Source: Bacteroidales bacterium (lineage in GTDB: Bacteria > Bacteroidota > Bacteroidia > Bacteroidales > Marinilabiliaceae). Taken from it: a stretch of 64,000 nt of DNA. The translations under genes and the position numbers were made by a program. The notes below the pieces were generated by a model. The model did no database searches. It was not told the DNA's origin and saw only the letters and a list, made by a program, of their open reading frames with translations. The stretch covers positions 1 through 64,000 of the forward strand of contig JAKSLH010000001.1 in NCBI GenBank assembly GCA_024401335.1, in the 5' to 3' direction. Positions within the stretch are counted from its first letter, which is position 1; the number at the start of each line of letters is the position of its first letter. Positions 32,449-55,953 of this stretch are shown here, one piece after another.

Positions 32449-33432
32449 ATGGACGACAAGATTATTATATATCAGACAGCCGATGGAGAGACCTCCATTG
32501 ATGTGAAACTTGATCGAGATACTGTTTGGCTGACACAAGCTCAAATGGCAGAGTTATTCAATACAGACAGAACATCTATATTAAGGCATATAAAAAACAT
32601 ATATCAGTCAGAAGAGTTGTCTGAGGAAGCAACCTGTGCAAAAAATGCACAAGTTCGATTTGAGGGAAATCGAAAAGTCTCTCGTATGATACCATTTTAT
32701 AATCTTGACATGATTATATCAGTAGGATATCGCGTAAACTCCATACGCGGTACCCAATTCCGCATTTGGGCCAACAAGGTTCTGAAAGAGTATCTTGTCA
32801 AAGGATACGCTATCAACAATAAGGTTGCTGTGCAGAAATATGTCGAATTGAGTCAGTTAGTTAATGTGTTGGGGCGTACAGTCAGACAACAAGAGAGACT
32901 GACCGGCGATGAGGCTAGTGCTCTGATTAATGTCGTTGCCGACTACAATTACGCTCTTGAGACTCTTGACCGATATGACTACCAAATTCTGAACATCGAG
33001 CAGACCACCAATGAGGAGCGTTTTCATGCGACATACGACAATGCCATGCAAGCCATTGCCTGCATGAAACAAAAGTTCGGTGGAAGTCCATTGTTCGGTA
33101 ACGAGAAGGATGGTTCGTTCAAAAGTTCTATCGGTCAGATATACCAGACATTTGGAGGCCAAGACCTCTATCCCTCTGTCGAAGAAAAGGCTTCTATGTT
33201 GCTTTATCTGGTCACCAAGAATCATTCTTTCAGTGATGGCAACAAACGTATTGCCGCGGCCCTGTTCCTATGGTTCATGAATAACAATGGCATATTATAT
33301 GATGAAAATGGAGGCAAACGCATTGGCGACAACACGCTGGTGGCACTCACTCTTATGATAGCCGAAAGTCGCACTGAAGAGAAGGATACAATGGTCAAGG
33401 TAGTTGTAAATCTCATCAATAGGGAAAACTAG
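32449..33432 (+). CDS. RhuM-Fic/Doc fusion protein
   Basis: 327 residues. Residues 1 to about 130 are a RhuM-family domain (VWLTQAQMAELFNTDRTSIL ... VGYRVNSIRGTQFRIWANKVL), which looks like a DNA-binding helix-turn-helix unit. The C-terminal part holds a Fic/Doc domain with the catalytic motif HSFSDGNKRIAAALF. The Lys in GNKR resembles Doc rather than AMPylating Fic proteins with GNGR, so phosphorylation or another NTP-derived modification is as likely as AMPylation. I see no adjacent Phd-type antitoxin and no clear inhibitory-helix motif in the protein. It lies alone between two terminators, as an accessory cassette. Such fusions are common in Bacteroidetes mobile or defence-rich regions, but its target is unknown. 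Confidence 0.85.
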   Translation: MDDKIIIYQTADGETSIDVKLDRDTVWLTQAQMAELFNTDRTSILRHIKNIYQSEELSEEATCAKNAQVRFEGNRKVSRMIPFYNLDMIISVGYRVNSIRGTQFRIWANKVLKEYLVKGYAINNKVAVQKYVELSQLVNVLGRTVRQQERLTGDEASALINVVADYNYALETLDRYDYQILNIEQTTNEERFHATYDNAMQAIACMKQKFGGSPLFGNEKDGSFKSSIGQIYQTFGGQDLYPSVEEKASMLLYLVTKNHSFSDGNKRIAAALFLWFMNNNGILYDENGGKRIGDNTLVALTLMIAESRTEEKDTMVKVVVNLINREN

Positions 33433-33480
33433 GTGTAAATTTATTTACGCATTTCTACAAAGATATATATAATTAAACCC

Positions 33481-33516
33481 AGAGACGTTGCCCATCGGTA
33501 GCGTCTCTTTTTTTTG
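33481..33516 (+). terminator. Terminator after the RhuM-Fic gene
   Basis: Seven-base-pair stem AGAGACG/CGTCTCT with a 14-base loop followed by eight T residues. Confidence 0.85.
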
Positions 33517-33570
33517 TCTTCGTTTTGTTTTTCCAACCTATAGGTCAATTTTTTTTGAAAAAAATTGCTG

Positions 33571-33606
33571 TTCCCTATAATTTTTCGTCATGTCCATGCA
33601 TCTAAT
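33571..33606 (+). promoter_or_regulatory. ECF-type promoter block, copy 1
   Basis: TATAATTTTTCG and, further on, GCATCTAATGG resemble the -35 (GTAAnTTTT) and -10 (CGTCTA-like) elements of ECF sigma promoters. The same block, with the second element at exactly the same distance (27 bases from the first TTCC), precedes the ECF sigma gene at 52494. Similarity continues for about 25 bases beyond the -10. The gene it serves begins about 70 bases later. Confidence 0.65.
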
Positions 33607-33675
33607 GGTTGTAAAGTGATTAAGAAAGAAGAATCACATAACAAATAACAAGTAGAACAATAAAAACTTAATACT

Positions 33676-34758
33676 ATGGAAAATTACAATGTAAATGAGA
33701 TGAACGATCAGATTGCAACACTCAAGAGCAACATTGAGAAGCAGCATAATGTTATCGACACTCTGATGCGCGAATCGATGCAGAACAAGGTGAACGCCCT
33801 CAATGCCAATGCACGCAAGTCGATATTCTGCGCACTCCTGATTGCGGTATTCTACCCTTTATTCCACTATCAATGCAACATCTCAATGTTGTGCATAGGT
33901 GTGATAATAGCTATCAATATCGTTATGGCTATTGCGGTATATCTCGTTCACAAGCCACTCAGCACAACCAACCTTATGCGTGGCGACACATCATCGGCAA
34001 TATCCGTTGTAGAAGGCATACGTAGATTTTATCTTACGTATGTCAAGTATTGGGGCTTCTGCTATATCCCATGGTCAATCTGGTTTGCGTACGAGCTGAT
34101 CGTTGGCATGGGCGTTGATGAGCGTGGATCTGTCGTAATAGGTGTGTTATGTGGCTTCATCGGTGCAATTGTCAGCGTCAGAAACAATAAGGATTGTTTG
34201 GATGTCGTTTCGCGTTGTGAGGCATTGCTCGACCAGTTGACCGATGGCAAGTTCAGTGCTGCCAATGCTAGTTCTGCAGACGCAGAGAAGTGCAAGAAAC
34301 CATTGTTTGACATTCGTTTTGAGTCGAAACGCTCTATCATAGGCATGTTCTTTTCAGTAGTTCTGTTTAGCAGCCTCTGGATGGCACCTGATCTCGAGCC
34401 TATATTTACCAAGCCATTATGTATCTTCGGCGCTGTAAGTAGCTATGTTATGCTTCTTGTGGCACTATTCATCCACCGTCAGCTCAACAAGGTTAACGAC
34501 CACAGCACATTAGTTGACATACTTTCAACTACAAGCAATTATGCCAAGATCTATGGCTACATGCATATCGTTACTTGCATATTGACCTCAATCCTTGTGA
34601 TATGGATGTCTGTTAATATCGTCTCAGCATACGGCATAAGCGTTGTAGCTACAGTAGTGACAAGCGCACTAACCATAGCAGGCTGCGCTATAATTGGAAA
34701 CATGACATACGACAAAGTGAAGCAGTCGGTCAATCAGATAGCAGAATTGCAGAAATAA
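33676..34758 (+). CDS. Eight-helix membrane protein of unknown family, paralogue A
   Basis: 360 residues, no recognised family. A polar N-terminal region of about 45 residues (NDQIATLKSNIEKQ...) has coiled-coil character and is followed by eight hydrophobic segments grouped as four plus four, each group made of two hairpins with a polar loop of about 30 residues between them. A short amphipathic tail (YDKVKQSVNQIAELQK) ends the protein. The whole length aligns with the 355-residue protein at 52988-54055, best in the N-terminal coil (EM..QIA.LKS..EKQ) and first helix. There is no signal peptide; the coil should be cytoplasmic. Its own upstream region carries the ECF-type promoter block but no sigma gene. 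Probably an inner-membrane sensor, effector or anti-sigma-like protein. Confidence 0.75.
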   Translation: MENYNVNEMNDQIATLKSNIEKQHNVIDTLMRESMQNKVNALNANARKSIFCALLIAVFYPLFHYQCNISMLCIGVIIAINIVMAIAVYLVHKPLSTTNLMRGDTSSAISVVEGIRRFYLTYVKYWGFCYIPWSIWFAYELIVGMGVDERGSVVIGVLCGFIGAIVSVRNNKDCLDVVSRCEALLDQLTDGKFSAANASSADAEKCKKPLFDIRFESKRSIIGMFFSVVLFSSLWMAPDLEPIFTKPLCIFGAVSSYVMLLVALFIHRQLNKVNDHSTLVDILSTTSNYAKIYGYMHIVTCILTSILVIWMSVNIVSAYGISVVATVVTSALTIAGCAIIGNMTYDKVKQSVNQIAELQK

Positions 34759-51100: not shown

Positions 51101-51826
51101 ATGAATAAGAAAGTTGGCATCATTGGAGCCATGGACGTTGAGGTCGAACTTCTCAACTCTATCATGAAGCCTGCCGAGGGATGCGGTGCGATTAAGACAA
51201 CAAATGCTGGTAGTTGCACTTTTACCGAGGGCTCTATCGACGGTATTCCTGTTGTTGTCGTTCAGTCTGGCATTGGTAAGGTCAATGCAGCCCTCTGCGC
51301 TCAGCGCCTCATTATGCAGTTCGGAGTGACCCACGTTATTAATTCTGGCATCGCTGGCGCTATCGCTCATGGCCTTCGTGTCCAGGATGTCGTCGTCTCT
51401 ACAAGCGCTCTCTATCACGATATGGATGTCGTTGCTTTCGGACATAAGATATGCGAGATTCCTGAAATGGACTGCTCCGATTTCCCTGCCGATGAGGCTA
51501 TGGTCAAGGCGGCTCAGAAGGCATTCGCTTCTCTCGAGTCTGCTAAGGGGCATCAGATCCTTGCCGGTCGTATCGCTAGTGGCGACCAGTTCGTCGCTTC
51601 TAAGGATCTCAAGGACGAGATCGTCCGCCGCTGCAGCCCTATGTGCGTCGAGATGGAAGGCGCTGCCGTCGCTCACGCTTGCTATCTCAACAAGACGCCT
51701 TATGTTGTCATCCGTTGTATGAGCGATATGGCTGATGATAATGGCGAAGAGACTTACTCTTTCAATAAGATCGATACAGCCAACATGAGCGCTAACCTTG
51801 TTCGCAGCATGTTGCCTCTGTTCTAA
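51101..51826 (+). CDS. mtnN: 5'-methylthioadenosine/S-adenosylhomocysteine nucleosidase
   Basis: 241 residues from the ATG at 51101; an in-frame TTG at 51092 is less likely. MTAN motifs are GIIGAMDVEVELL, SGIGKVNAALCAQRLI, MEGAAVAH (substrate-binding Met-Glu) and the catalytic Asp in RCMSDMADD. It cleaves adenine from MTA and SAH; the resulting S-ribosylhomocysteine is the substrate of LuxS, encoded 34 bases downstream. Together they recycle SAM by-products and yield the AI-2 precursor. Confidence 0.95.
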   Translation: MNKKVGIIGAMDVEVELLNSIMKPAEGCGAIKTTNAGSCTFTEGSIDGIPVVVVQSGIGKVNAALCAQRLIMQFGVTHVINSGIAGAIAHGLRVQDVVVSTSALYHDMDVVAFGHKICEIPEMDCSDFPADEAMVKAAQKAFASLESAKGHQILAGRIASGDQFVASKDLKDEIVRRCSPMCVEMEGAAVAHACYLNKTPYVVIRCMSDMADDNGEETYSFNKIDTANMSANLVRSMLPLF

Positions 51827-51860
51827 TTGTTATCTGATAAACTACTTAATATATAATACT

Positions 51861-52337
51861 ATGGCAGAAGACAAGAAATATAACGTCGATAGCTTCAACC
51901 TCGACCATACTTTGGTTGTGGCTCCTTATGTTCGTCTCGCAGCTAAGAAGGTTGGCGAGAAGGGCGATATCGTTAGCAAATATGACATACGCTTTACACA
52001 GCCTAACAAGGAGTTCATGGAGACTGGCTCTATCCATACTCTCGAACACCTCATCGCTGAATATATCCGTGAGGAACTTCCTGGCATCGTGATCGACCTT
52101 AGCCCTATGGGCTGCCGTACAGGCTTCTATTTTACTGTATGGGGCGAGCACGAAGAGTCTTACATCGCTGAGCATCTCGCTAACGTACTTCGTAAGGTGG
52201 CTGTCTGGGACAAGCCTGTTCCTGCTACTACTGCTAAAGAATGTGGCAACTACCTCGATCATAACCTCGAAGGCGCTAAGCTTTGGGCTAAGAGATGGGT
52301 TGAAGGCATAGAACGTAAGGGTTGGAAGTGCATGTAA
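51861..52337 (+). CDS. luxS: S-ribosylhomocysteine lyase
   Basis: 158 residues from the ATG at 51861. The metal-binding HTLEH motif (His59, His63) and Cys127 in AKECGNY are present; Cys85 in SPMGCRTGFY is the catalytic residue. It splits S-ribosylhomocysteine into homocysteine and DPD, the AI-2 precursor. The mtnN-luxS order gives the complete two-step detoxification route. A terminator follows directly. Confidence 0.97.
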   Translation: MAEDKKYNVDSFNLDHTLVVAPYVRLAAKKVGEKGDIVSKYDIRFTQPNKEFMETGSIHTLEHLIAEYIREELPGIVIDLSPMGCRTGFYFTVWGEHEESYIAEHLANVLRKVAVWDKPVPATTAKECGNYLDHNLEGAKLWAKRWVEGIERKGWKCM

Positions 52338-52379: not shown

Positions 52380-52416
52380 ATGGCGATAGGGTAGTGCCTG
52401 TCGCCATTTTCTTTTC
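52380..52416 (+). terminator. Terminator after luxS
   Basis: Eleven-base-pair stem ATGGCGATAGG/CCTGTCGCCAT (one G-T) followed by TTTCTTTTC. Confidence 0.8.
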
Positions 52417-52429
52417 AAAATAATTCATC

Positions 52430-52466
52430 TTCCTTGTAATTTTTCGATAGGTACACGCATCTAATG
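52430..52466 (+). promoter_or_regulatory. ECF-type promoter block, copy 2 (autoregulatory)
   Basis: TTGTAATTTTTCG and GCATCTAATGG, with the same 27-base offset as copy 1 at 33571, resemble ECF -35 and -10 elements. The block lies about 30 bases before the sigma factor ATG, the usual position of an autoregulated ECF promoter. Confidence 0.7.
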
Positions 52467-52493
52467 GGTGTTCAATGATTCAGAAGAAGCAAT

Positions 52494-52973
52494 ATGAAAG
52501 ACGAAGCAAAATTTACTCAAGTGGTGCGAGACAACAAAAGCACGATATATACAGTGTGCTATATGTTCTCGCAAGACAAGGATGAGGTCGATGAACTCTT
52601 CCAGCTTACACTAATCAACCTCTGGAACGGCTTTGAGTCGTTTAGGGGCGATAGCAAGGTTGAGACATGGATATGGCGTGTGGCGCTCAATACATGTCTC
52701 TCGTCGGAGCGCAAGAAGAAATCGACCGGGACCAAGGTGCCGCTCAACGTCAACATCGACCTCTATGCCGATAGCGACGCTGACAGCCTTCAGGTGCAGG
52801 CTCTGCGCAAGCGCATCTCGAAACTTGGCCTTATCGACCGCTCGATAGTGCTCATGTGGCTCGAGAACATGAGTTACGACGAGATAGGCGCTATCCTTGG
52901 CATCACACCAAGCAACGTCGGAGTAAAGCTTCTGCGAATCAAGGAACAGCTTAAGAAAATGTCTAACGATTAA
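52494..52973 (+). CDS. ECF RNA polymerase sigma factor
   Basis: 159 residues: region 2 (VDELFQLTLINLWNGFESFRGDSKVETWIWRVA split over about 35-65) and region 4 with the helix-turn-helix MSYDEIGAILGITPSNVGVKLLRIKEQL. There is no FecI-type partner: no FecR gene, SusC or TonB receptor lies nearby. The next gene, 14 bases downstream, encodes the eight-helix membrane protein, the position in which many ECF systems keep the anti-sigma gene. Its own promoter block recurs upstream of the paralogous membrane protein at 33.7 kb. Confidence 0.9.
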   Translation: MKDEAKFTQVVRDNKSTIYTVCYMFSQDKDEVDELFQLTLINLWNGFESFRGDSKVETWIWRVALNTCLSSERKKKSTGTKVPLNVNIDLYADSDADSLQVQALRKRISKLGLIDRSIVLMWLENMSYDEIGAILGITPSNVGVKLLRIKEQLKKMSND

Positions 52974-52987
52974 AAAAAACTACTACT

Positions 52988-54055
52988 ATGGAAGATATAC
53001 AGTTCGAAGAGATGCGTTCACAGATCGCTATCCTCAAAAGCAAACTCGAGAAACAGGAGATTGTCAACGATAGCATATTGCGCGATTCGATGCGGATGAA
53101 GGTCAACAATATCAACAAGCGTGCTTACAAGGTTATCTTCGGCGCCTTTGCCTGCATGCCTCTTTTCATTCTGATTCACTACTCGTCACACATCTCTTGG
53201 CCGGTCATTATCGGTTCGATACTCATACTTCTGTGCTCTGCTATCGGTACTTATCTGATCCATCATGATGTAATGAAGAGTGGCTTCATGAATGGCAATG
53301 TTGCCGAAGTGTCTAAGGCTCTTGTCAAAATGAAGTGCCAGTACACTAATTGGACAAAATATGCAATATCTCCTACAATCATCTTGATGGGATGGTATAC
53401 CTACGACTTCGTTACTCAAATGGGCTATCAGGGCACAATACTAATGATAATGCTTGTTTGTTGCGTAATATGTGGTTTCATAGGTGCATACGCAGGCATC
53501 AGCAGAAACAAGAAGACAATCCGCGAGTGCGACGAGATACTATCGCAACTCGTAAGTAAAGATGGCGAGGCCACATGCAATGCCGATGCTTCACTGTCAA
53601 GCAAATTCGATTCTATCGAGTTCCAGGTCCGCACAATGTTCACTCGTGGCTTTATTTCAATGTTCGTGTTCGCTATACTTGCCTTCGCAACGTTCCATAT
53701 GCCTGCATCATTTGCCCTGGCCGCTATCCTGGCTACAGGTCTTGTAGCTCTGGCCCATATTATACTCTGCCGCGATATGGTCAATGGCAACACCCTCTGC
53801 CAAAGTGGCTCTGAACTTAGAGAGACTACAAGCAACTTCAAGAGCAACTTCAAGATAGCTTCTCTGCTCGATTTCTTGGTGTCTGTATCTCTTGCTGGCT
53901 GCGTGGCGTTCATCATCTCTATCATTCAGCCTCTGCCATTGTCATTGATTCTTGCAGCCTTCGCTGGTCTTGTAGTTCTGGCCGCAGTCCTCAATCGCAA
54001 TACATACAACAAGGTGAAGTCTCTTTGTGATGAAATCATTGAACAATTGGCCTAA
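52988..54055 (+). CDS. Eight-helix membrane protein of unknown family, paralogue B (candidate anti-sigma factor)
   Basis: 355 residues with a coiled-coil-like cytoplasmic N-terminus (about 1-45, EEMRSQIAILKSKLEKQ) and eight hydrophobic helices in two groups of four; the tail is YNKVKSLCDEIIEQLA. The two groups look like a tandem duplication: each has two hairpins separated by a polar loop and ends in an amphipathic segment. It aligns along its full length with the protein at 33676-34758. The adjacency to the ECF sigma gene suggests that the N-terminal coil may bind the sigma factor, but no known anti-sigma domain (ZAS, FecR) is recognisable. Confidence 0.78.
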   Translation: MEDIQFEEMRSQIAILKSKLEKQEIVNDSILRDSMRMKVNNINKRAYKVIFGAFACMPLFILIHYSSHISWPVIIGSILILLCSAIGTYLIHHDVMKSGFMNGNVAEVSKALVKMKCQYTNWTKYAISPTIILMGWYTYDFVTQMGYQGTILMIMLVCCVICGFIGAYAGISRNKKTIRECDEILSQLVSKDGEATCNADASLSSKFDSIEFQVRTMFTRGFISMFVFAILAFATFHMPASFALAAILATGLVALAHIILCRDMVNGNTLCQSGSELRETTSNFKSNFKIASLLDFLVSVSLAGCVAFIISIIQPLPLSLILAAFAGLVVLAAVLNRNTYNKVKSLCDEIIEQLA

Positions 54056-54134: not shown

Positions 54135-54635
54135 CTAGGGGCAGGCCTTGCTCCTGCTCTTTATCTTACGCCTGCCCGTTGTCTTCCATCTCTTCTCTAT
54201 CACAATCACCTCTATCTTCCTTCCCGCGTCATATTTCTCTTTCTTATGGCTCATGTGGTTGTCTTCTGCCTCGTTCTTTCTTGTCTTTTCTCTTGCCTCT
54301 TCTTCTTTTCTCCTTATCACTTCTCCTTTGAGCTCTGCCACATACCATGCCCTCGCACACCCCATGGCTGTCTTATATCCCATCTCTCTCGCTCTCTTCT
54401 CCCATTGTTCTCTCCTCCCGTCTCTGGCCATGTCTTCTCTGGCCAATACATTAGCTCTTTTTAGCAGCTCTCTACACTCTATCTGCGCCTCTGTGTTCGG
54501 CTGCACACACTTGAACTTCTTAAACGTATAAAGTCTGCCGTTCCTTTGGGTTATCCTAAAGGAACCACCGCGCTTCGTTATCATTCTCCGCGCCCCTCTC
54601 AGCGTTACGCCTTCGCTTAATACTATTCTTGCCAT
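54135..54635 (-). CDS. Basic hypothetical protein, 166 aa
   Basis: The frame is open from 54710, but the ATG at 54635 gives the natural start (MARIVLSEGVTLRGARR) and lies about 45 bases after a perfect minus-strand -7 box TATATTTG (54682-54689). The product is strongly basic with a long Arg/Lys/Glu-rich helical stretch in the middle (KRAREMGYKTAMGCARAWYV, then charged repeats). It could bind nucleic acid. I recognise no family; it is not part of a phage module. Confidence 0.6.
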   Translation of the reverse strand: MARIVLSEGVTLRGARRMITKRGGSFRITQRNGRLYTFKKFKCVQPNTEAQIECRELLKRANVLAREDMARDGRREQWEKRAREMGYKTAMGCARAWYVAELKGEVIRRKEEEAREKTRKNEAEDNHMSHKKEKYDAGRKIEVIVIEKRWKTTGRRKIKSRSKACP

Positions 54636-54760
54636 ATCTGGTTGTCTGATGAAGTTCTGCGTGTATGTTTCTCTGTTACTCTGCAAATATACAAAAAGGA
54701 ATCGAAACACGTACTTTCAATGATGTAATAAGCAGCCCTTGGCTTATGAAACCGCATAAG

Positions 54761-54822: not shown

Positions 54823-55953
54823 TTACTCTACAAGCACAAATTCAGTACGACGGTTCTGATCAGGGTCGTCACTTATGAGCTCTGTGCTTCCCTTGCCTTC
54901 ATATTCCAGCTGCTCTGCCTTTACACCTTTCGAGATGAGGTAATCGACAGCGGCCTTTGCTCGGTCTTCAGAGAGTTTCTGGTTGAATGCTGCATCGCCC
55001 TCTGGTGATGAGTGGCCAATTACTTTGAGCTTGAGATTTGGATTGTCAAGTAACATCTGCTCCATGTCTTTCAAGGCTGCCTTTGTCTCATCTGTCAAGT
55101 TGGCCTTGCCCTTGATGAACTTTGCGGCGTTGAATTTCTTCTCTATCTTCTCTATAGCTTGCGACACCTCTGCTACAACGCTGTCTTTCACGGCTGTTGC
55201 AGCCTCTACTGCCTCAACGGCTTCTGTACTTGCACTTTCAACGTTGTCTTTCACGTCTTCTTTTGAGCATCCTCTCAAGAGCAGGAACAGCAAGAGCAAC
55301 AAGAGCAAAAGGAGTAGTAGCCACCACCACCATTTGCATTTGCTTTTCTTCTCCTCCTCAGGCTGTTCGTCATCGGTGTTTGTCACTTCCGCTACGGCTT
55401 CTTCTGCTTTCTTTGCAATCTCCTCTGCCTTCTCTGCTACATCTTCTGTCTTCTTAGCAACATCAGCCAGCAATGGCGCTACAAAGCCGTTTATGTTCTC
55501 AAGGCTGAAGGAACCCTTTGTGAAGCCTCCGTCAAATTTCTCGAATGAGGCTACTTCTATGCCATATTGCTTCGCCCAGTTGAGCATGTCGTTATACGAC
55601 TCTGACGTCCACACCGATTCCATAGCCAGCTCCTTGCCGTCTGCTGTGTGTATCGTCTCGTCTTCTTGCTCAAATATAGAGGTTGTCGCTGATATGTCTT
55701 CGTGGTTGTGCGCCCACACTCTCTTGCCTTCTACTGTAACTATCTCGTGAAACAAGCCATACTTGTAGAATGGGTCTGTCTCTTTCTTGGCCTCGAGCTT
55801 AGCGAACTTTGAAGTCAGACTTGGTGGAAATGCTTTTGCTAGATCCTCAGCTGTTGTCTGTGGGTTGATTTTTAAGTATGCATTGACTATACCCAACGCG
55901 GTACGGTTCATAGCTTTGCCGTGTACACGGATCTTACCTGTAGATTCTGCCAT
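54823..55953 (-). CDS. OmpA-domain protein with cytoplasmic N-terminal domain and poly-Leu membrane anchor
   Basis: 376 residues without a signal peptide. Residues 1-155 form a soluble domain of unknown type (DPFYKYGLFHEIV, FDGGFTKGSFSLENI); residues 164-195 are a Lys/Glu/Ala coiled coil; residues 208-226 are a membrane helix made of four Trp followed by Leu with one Phe, bounded by KCK and RGCSK. After a linker, the OmpA peptidoglycan-binding domain (about 265-376) shows LKVIGHSSPEGD, QKLSEDRAKAAVDYL and NRRTEFVL. It should span the inner membrane with the OmpA domain in the periplasm, tying the cytoplasm to the cell wall. The role is not known. Confidence 0.85.
   Translation of the reverse strand: MAESTGKIRVHGKAMNRTALGIVNAYLKINPQTTAEDLAKAFPPSLTSKFAKLEAKKETDPFYKYGLFHEIVTVEGKRVWAHNHEDISATTSIFEQEDETIHTADGKELAMESVWTSESYNDMLNWAKQYGIEVASFEKFDGGFTKGSFSLENINGFVAPLLADVAKKTEDVAEKAEEIAKKAEEAVAEVTNTDDEQPEEEKKSKCKWWWWLLLLLLLLLLLFLLLRGCSKEDVKDNVESASTEAVEAVEAATAVKDSVVAEVSQAIEKIEKKFNAAKFIKGKANLTDETKAALKDMEQMLLDNPNLKLKVIGHSSPEGDAAFNQKLSEDRAKAAVDYLISKGVKAEQLEYEGKGSTELISDDPDQNRRTEFVLVE

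Follow-up and report, generated by a model that had tools for sequence, protein, structure and literature searches.

In E. coli, the ECF sigma factor sigma-E responds to envelope stress, is autoregulated and drives envelope proteases as well as its own anti-sigma factor RseA, a single-span protein with a periplasmic domain. To our knowledge, sigma-E/RseA is not accompanied by an additional, orphan anti-sigma gene that shares its promoter. A different architecture is found in Caulobacter NrsF, which is described in the accessible sections of PMC3511200 as a polytopic protein with six helices and a 25-residue N-terminal segment that acts as negative regulator of its ECF sigma factor. For the Bacteroidales, the accessible part of PMC13114119 reports that the EcfO regulon includes surface lipoproteins and that Reo, a proposed outer membrane stress sensor, spans both membranes, and Das1/Dma1 represents a further pair of ECF sigma and anti-sigma factor (PMC12596196, main text). 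In the same text, SigW-1 is linked to arylsulfatase genes; neither the word peptidase nor the word protease occurs in it. The transcription map of B. thetaiotaomicron (PMC7366714, accessible sections) gives TAnnTTTG as the housekeeping consensus and mentions a second promoter motif beside it.

Here, we describe two loci in a stretch of Bacteroidales DNA of 64,000 nucleotides (the window), which appear to form a circuit of known kind with one unusual extra: the sigma factor's own predicted promoter also precedes an anti-sigma-like gene which is an orphan and apparently doubled. The likeness to sigma-E/RseA consists in an autoregulated ECF sigma factor driving its own (here probable) anti-sigma factor, although the protein in the window is polytopic. 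As in Caulobacter SigF/NrsF (DUF1109), an ECF sigma operon includes a nearly all-helix membrane protein with a short N-terminal segment, but NrsF has, according to the accessible part of its description, six helices and two conserved cysteines, whereas the window family has four, or apparently four plus four. An assignment to NrsF/DUF1109 was rejected, as neither the window copies nor the 25 of 29 families listed for members included a DUF1109 match and no cysteine pair is conserved; only a single alignment column holds cysteine in more than 30% of the rows (38/77). Class I (ASD/ZAS) single-span anti-sigma factors were likewise dismissed, with no anti-sigma domain in the window copies or among the same 25 of 29 listed families, and with a polytopic protein. 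The circuit resembles EcfO/Reo and Das/Dma of Bacteroides and Phocaeicola, as far as these are described in the accessible sections, in joining a Bacteroidales ECF sigma factor to an adjoining anti-sigma gene. Unlike Reo, which is reported there to span both membranes, the window family has the look of a helix bundle in the inner membrane that hardly extends into the periplasm; its short, presumably periplasmic loops, judged by hydropathy and charge only, led us to set the Reo/Dma dual-membrane class aside. B. thetaiotaomicron SigW-1 (BT1817)/BT1816 and BT0248/BT0247, likened here by their description in the main text of PMC12596196, also pair an ECF sigma factor with a transmembrane protein. 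In the literature searched, which did not extend to most subscription journals or to the main ECF classification paper, neither the promoter nor the membrane-protein family is described. For a sigma factor which occurs in many Bacteroidales genomes, the analysis yields a promoter consensus, a family of polytopic proteins that probably are its anti-sigma factors, and a prediction of envelope peptidases as its regulon.

A first reading made from the sequence alone (the sequence-only reading) had pointed to an ungapped block of about 60 bases shared by the two loci, with two exact words at equal spacing, and this was borne out by direct reading as well as by shuffle and random controls. TAATTTTTCG-N10-GCATCTAATGG is present at 33578-33608 and 52437-52467, with TAATTTTTCG at 33578-33587 and 52437-52446 and GCATCTAATGG at 33598-33608 and 52457-52467. 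Ungapped identity amounts to 26/32 in the core (33577-33608 versus 52436-52467), to 25/40 upstream and to 17/26 downstream of it. The best 31-base segment has 26 identities between the two loci and the best 60-base segment 47 (33549-33608 versus 52408-52467); similarity of this degree, over 31 or 60 bases, was reached by none of 2000 dinucleotide-shuffled pairs of the upstream regions and by none of 2976 random pairs of 150-base stretches of the window. With up to three mismatches allowed, the 31-base pattern is confined to the two window sites in the entire 2.7 Mb assembly, the completeness of which the tool gives as 84.64%, and the reversed control pattern gave no match. A third exact GCATCTAATGG on contig C29 has no -35 partner (best 4.5 bits).

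For a comparison with relatives, named genomes were scanned with an alignment of six sigma proteins, and the best 80 of 503 loci were taken, showing 58-69% identity on the best segment. They come from Bacteroidia, many of them from the herbivore gut, and include Parabacteroides faecalis and P. distasonis. A strict promoter expression was found in 57 of these 80 upstream regions, and the 52 distinct sites at the 57 loci, all upstream of orthologous sigma genes, served to build a matrix with the window left out of training. Its consensus reads TGTAGTTTTTC, 9 or 10 bases, TGCGTCTAATGG. On both strands of the 64 kb window, the sites before copy 2 and copy 1 of the membrane-protein gene score 31.2 and 26.9 bits, and the next unrelated place 8.6 bits. 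Because a matrix that never saw the window sites ranks them first and second, the interpretation of the shared block as an ECF promoter is well supported at the level of sequence, and one sigma factor probably serves both loci. The promoter of copy 1 (33574-33608, forward strand) comprises the -35 element CTATAATTTTTCG and the -10 element GCATCTAATGG, that of copy 2, which is the sigma gene's own (52433-52467, forward strand), the -35 element CTTGTAATTTTTCG and the same -10 element; TCTAATGG is present at both. The -35 half of copy 1 scores 9.8 bits versus 16.9 bits for copy 2, with ATAA in place of GTAA, which counts against the explanation favoured below. In the -10 half, copy 1 reaches 17.1 versus 14.3 bits with the matrix from relatives. 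A weaker -35 together with a stronger -10 element would fit a distinct induction level of copy 1.

Absence of the block upstream of orthologues had been named as a result contrary to the sequence-only reading; sites of at least 20 bits were found within 150 bases at 61 of the 79 scorable sigma orthologues among the best 80 of 503, a partly circular figure given that 57 of the loci trained the matrix. At least 10 bits are reached at 73 of these 79 loci; L090, with too short an upstream region, was left out of the scoring. Eighteen of the 79 score below 20 bits, four of them below 0, and count against the explanation favoured below. The -35/-10 pair conserved upstream of its own gene across orthologues supports, at the level of sequence, an autoregulation of the sigma operon. 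Four genomes of the same genus (G002, G003, G007, G013), the sigma proteins of which are 41-50% identical, carry a related arrangement of GTAA/GTAG and CGACTAAT.

The genes beside the two blocks proved to be those claimed from the sequence, an ECF sigma factor gene followed by a membrane-protein gene from 52494 on and a lone paralogue at 33676, the two membrane proteins sharing 28% identity. The sigma gene (52494-52973, forward strand) encodes a protein of 159 aa which consists of regions 2 and 4 and little else, as is characteristic of group IV (ECF), and matches PF04542 with 43.5 bits (cut-off 24), PF08281 with 33.8 bits (cut-off 25.7) and TIGR02937 with 72.3 bits (cut-off 42.9). A profile of the sigma proteins of six relatives matches the solved SigW, SigH and SigE. 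The families GFO_1088/PG0214 (NF058625) and Sig70_bacteroi1 (TIGR02985) were rejected with 60.2 and 49.4 bits, below cut-offs of 130 and 126.4 bits. The copy 2 gene (52988-54055, forward strand) begins 14 nt past the sigma gene, in the same order as in relatives, and encodes a polytopic membrane protein of 355 aa, which the family HMM and this gene order mark as the probable cognate anti-sigma factor; the HMM covers residues 1-188 (180.5 bits) and 202-354 (20.7 bits). Upstream of the operon lies luxS (51798-52337), identified by a LuxS Pfam match and followed by an intrinsic-terminator-like hairpin (52380-52407, forward strand; fold -19.3 kcal/mol, z -6.0). Next to the operon, the reverse strand holds a possibly coding frame of 191 codons (54135-54710) which is very rich in Arg, Lys and Glu, and the gene of an OmpA-family protein (54823-55953) is located downstream.

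The membrane protein belongs to a family which is closely tied to the sigma gene. At 75 of the best 80 of 503 loci, a gene of 185-220 aa lies directly 3' of the sigma gene, and 40 of the products show four hydrophobic peaks, 32 three, two five and one two; at the other five of these 80 loci (L042, L053, L069, L086, L100), the downstream frame was not found, and L069 also has a broken sigma frame of 44 aa. The proteins downstream of sigma start with ELEEMRxQxxxLKxKLxxQxIVN or a close variant. A protein search in 393 genomes of the order, which started from the membrane protein and was independent of the sigma gene, detected 24 members outside the window in 20 genomes, and in all 24 cases an ECF sigma frame, identified by its sequence motif and by eye, immediately precedes the gene. 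Each of the 20 non-window matches in 18 genomes that had been selected for their sigma gene likewise stands behind a sigma frame, 18 of them by motif and the remaining two, L155 (also L134) and L160, by reading. The 45 N-terminal residues are best conserved, with 2.17 bits per site versus 1.44-1.87 in the other four segments. Charged residues lie at both termini and in the middle loop. This is the distribution to be expected if a four-helix protein has both ends inside (N-in, C-in), and therefore most of the non-membrane part should be cytoplasmic. Judged from gene order, architecture and conservation, the protein is a probable cognate anti-sigma factor, because gene order, autoregulation and layout are as expected of one. 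The family is unnamed in Pfam, and Pfam and other domain models gave no known domain above cut-off in the window copies. Weak matches of DUF2207_C to 16 of 57 members (best E 1.1e-6) were attributed to membrane composition, and one to a solved SemiSWEET structure (E 0.02) to composition.

In relatives a single four-helix unit is usual, and the two window copies apparently have two. Alignment A3 was made from 55 of the 75 four-helix proteins. The second match of the family model covers residues 202-354 and 222-355 without the N-terminal segment and scores 24.2 and 23.3 bits, compared with 15.7 and 15.4 bits for reversed sequences and 18.1 and 22.1 bits for the best of 200 block shuffles. This is only moderately above composition and makes an internal doubling of the four-helix unit in the window copies likely. 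The eight helices proposed in the sequence-only reading agree with two such units, but a simple hydropathy scan distinguishes seven peaks in each of the two copies. Eight helices are also not quite unique to the window: a relative of 324 aa (L252, genome G335, 1474-2448), which is encoded after a sigma gene of its own, likewise shows eight hydrophobic peaks, and its second half is no clear repeat of the family unit. C-terminal additions differ among other members, with 284-427 residues overall, and L246, L248, L249, L251, L253, L254, L260 and L005 share the N-terminal part and have long C-terminal extensions (348-427 aa). The C-terminal, sensing half thus seems exchangeable.

Copy 1 (33676-34758, forward strand) encodes an orphan polytopic membrane protein of 360 aa, which is an anti-sigma-like paralogue of copy 2 and consists of the N-terminal segment, a four-helix unit and a probable second one; the family HMM covers residues 1-190 (118.5 bits) and 222-355 (19.5 bits). 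Every other family member examined is preceded by a sigma gene; copy 1 alone lacks one. Its 5' leader (33609-33675, forward strand) has 67 nt, versus a median of 26 nt (14-101 nt, 57 loci) before the sigma genes among the best 80 of 503, and tblastn of the sigma protein against 33433-33676 revealed no remnant of a sigma gene. An intrinsic-terminator-like hairpin with a T-run (33481-33515, forward strand; fold -19.1 kcal/mol, z -5.7) separates copy 1 from the upstream gene (32449-33432), in which a RhuM-type N-terminal domain is joined to a Fic/DOC domain. The N-terminal segment of copy 1 is present and aligned from residue 1, but diverged (NEMNDQIATLKSNIEKQHNV versus the family consensus EEMRSQIAILKSKLEKQEIV). 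R10 and K19, which belong to the best conserved N-terminal residues, are lost and count against a retained function in sigma binding, while M9, Q12, Q23, D28, S34-M35 and K38-V39 are kept in both copies.

The promoter pattern was also searched in two batches of 22 and 32 genomes (54, that of the window included), its last letter being slightly stricter in the second batch. The 21 and 33 matches, 54 altogether, compare with two for the reversed pattern. The pattern precedes sigma operons in 39 of the 54 matches, including the copy 2 operon of the window and L163 with a broken sigma frame; one match belongs to copy 1, and 14 are located elsewhere according to the downstream frames. Eleven of these 14 precede envelope peptidase-type genes confirmed by Pfam, six of them M16, three M13, one S49 (SppA type) and one TraB/GumN, at the consensus-bearing loci L222-L228, L175 and L189-L191. 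This proportion is far outside chance even if such genes are assumed to make up 1% of all genes, with some of the eleven coming from related genomes and being non-independent. The other three sites lack an envelope gene downstream. Those of L127 and L119 are followed by a DNA polymerase III delta-type gene and by a frame of no recognised family, respectively, and that of L128 by no clear gene. GCATC occurs in all three and ATAG in two of them. In an order-level relative, a TraB/GumN gene (L242, 507-1412, reverse strand; PF01963, 210.8 bits) directly follows the sigma/membrane-protein pair and is probably part of the same operon.

The occurrence of the same promoter before envelope peptidase-type genes in relatives makes it probable that the pathway responds to the state of envelope proteins and serves their quality control; for the organism of the window, this role is carried over from its relatives by analogy. 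The four loci of M16 genes in the window's own genome are without a site (best 5.7 bits). A large regulon in this genome was rejected as well, since a looser pattern with up to three mismatches gave 36 matches versus 39 for the reversed pattern and only the two best stand out. Five sites with two mismatches (L194-L198) do not precede a recognised envelope gene; one of these ECF-like sites (L194, around 1500; contig C1:309484) lies before two frames which resemble a toxin-antitoxin pair by eye. The usual peptidase targets may have been dropped in the lineage of the window, and the main detectable target of the circuit may be its own regulator.

The best explanation as a whole, to which we assign a reasonable though far from complete confidence, is that the sigma factor drives itself, its brake and, with copy 1, an extra brake or sensor. 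In this model, the ECF sigma factor encoded at 52494-52973 would recognise the block, and transcripts would be expected to start shortly after TCTAATGG at both sites, the promoter of copy 2 rendering the sigma/membrane-protein operon self-activating. The cognate anti-sigma factor would use the conserved segment at its cytoplasmic N-terminus to hold the sigma factor at the inner membrane. Its helix bundle, nearly devoid of periplasmic loops in the assumed layout, would sense a disturbance of the membrane or envelope and release the sigma factor. In the lineage of the window, the anti-sigma gene would have gained a probable second four-helix unit and been duplicated, and freed sigma factor would lead to more of the lone copy 1 as a putative second, diverged brake or sensor. 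The shared promoter, the autoregulation and the co-conservation of sigma factor and membrane protein are the parts of this model supported by sequence. More tentatively, and with rather less confidence, we suggest that activation might exchange one membrane sensor for a different one as the holder of the sigma factor, the enlarged, unlinked copy 1 being in the sigma factor's own regulon. If this is true, the response would retune its own input rather than merely shut itself off.

The main rival to this best explanation retains the promoter as described, but assumes that copy 1 no longer binds the sigma factor and is an effector, for membrane protection or as a sensor of something else, with an ancestral promoter. 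The longer branch of copy 1 in the tree of N-terminal units (1.59 versus 0.90), the lower fit of its N unit to the family model (118.5 versus 180.5 bits) and the departure of its N-terminal segment from the consensus, with the loss of R10 and K19, are in favour of such an effector; the conserved residues retained in both copies and the intact reading frame of 360 codons are opposed to it, and we regard it as unlikely, though deserving some weight. The housekeeping sigma factor might also transcribe copy 1, using an overlapping TTTG-N20-TAATTTTT or an element at 33524, the ECF -10 element being a relic. TTTG at 33524 is indeed followed by TTTTTTTG 22 bases on and TTTG at 33554 by TAATTTTT 20 bases on, copy 2 having neither, and both arrangements (33524-33585) are one mismatch from the published TAnnTTTG box, the second overlapping the -35 region of copy 1. 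However, such TTTG arrangements with at most one mismatch occur 33 times on one strand of the window (five exact), and the -10 half of copy 1 outscores that of copy 2, which a decaying relic should not do; transcription of this kind is considered improbable. Both upstream regions are AT-rich and lie behind terminators, as could be expected if the shared block were a chance similarity or a general AT-rich upstream feature without a role. The shuffle and random controls together with the matrix from relatives only rule out chance similarity, the pattern is confined to two sites in 2.7 Mb, and the probability left for a block without a role is minimal.

A further alternative concerns only the history of copy 1 and is compatible with the best explanation. 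The sequence-only reading had considered a duplication with loss of the sigma gene; whereas its ECF promoter and, probably, its single sigma factor for both loci stand, the evidence on this point goes both ways, and we give an operon duplication followed by sigma-gene loss an even chance. The likely role of the membrane protein as an anti-sigma factor and the presence of the promoter before peptidase genes of relatives go beyond that reading. Two full sigma operons coexist in two relatives (G050 and G057). Where found, the promoter precedes the sigma gene, so that duplicating promoter and membrane-protein gene together implies the loss of the intervening part. The flanks of the block are alike in the two loci, but the identity of the copy 1 flanks is equalled by promoters of other genomes (25/40 with L059, 18/26 with L096), and the extended flank similarity was therefore discarded as proof of a recent DNA duplication. 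The absence of a sigma remnant from the leader of copy 1 also opposes this history, and the 30 bases before the two membrane-protein genes match at 15 positions; among other gene starts, 9 of 496 pairs attain this number.

A tree of N-terminal units was built from all 75 four-helix proteins, the two N units of the window and 13 of the 24 order-level members. It pairs copy 1 with copy 2 as sisters with an ultrafast bootstrap of 96 and an SH-aLRT of 46, the pair occurring in 94% of the bootstrap trees; copy 1 is flagged as a long branch, its place being unsure. The pair sits in a clade of ten rows (98/94), the other eight of which are single units of 189-195 residues. A two-sequence profile (A2) detected no member in 14 other genomes of the genus or in 70 other genomes of the family, but it misses diverged members: in G002, G003, G007 and G013, the shorter proteins encoded after the sigma genes went unreported. 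The gene duplication, and probably the doubling, thus seem to have occurred in the lineage of the window. The sigma factor of the window is 58-69% identical (best segments) to other Bacteroidales proteins and at most 50% identical to those in its own genus; this higher identity outside the genus possibly reflects horizontal transfer or a loss of the true orthologue within the genus.
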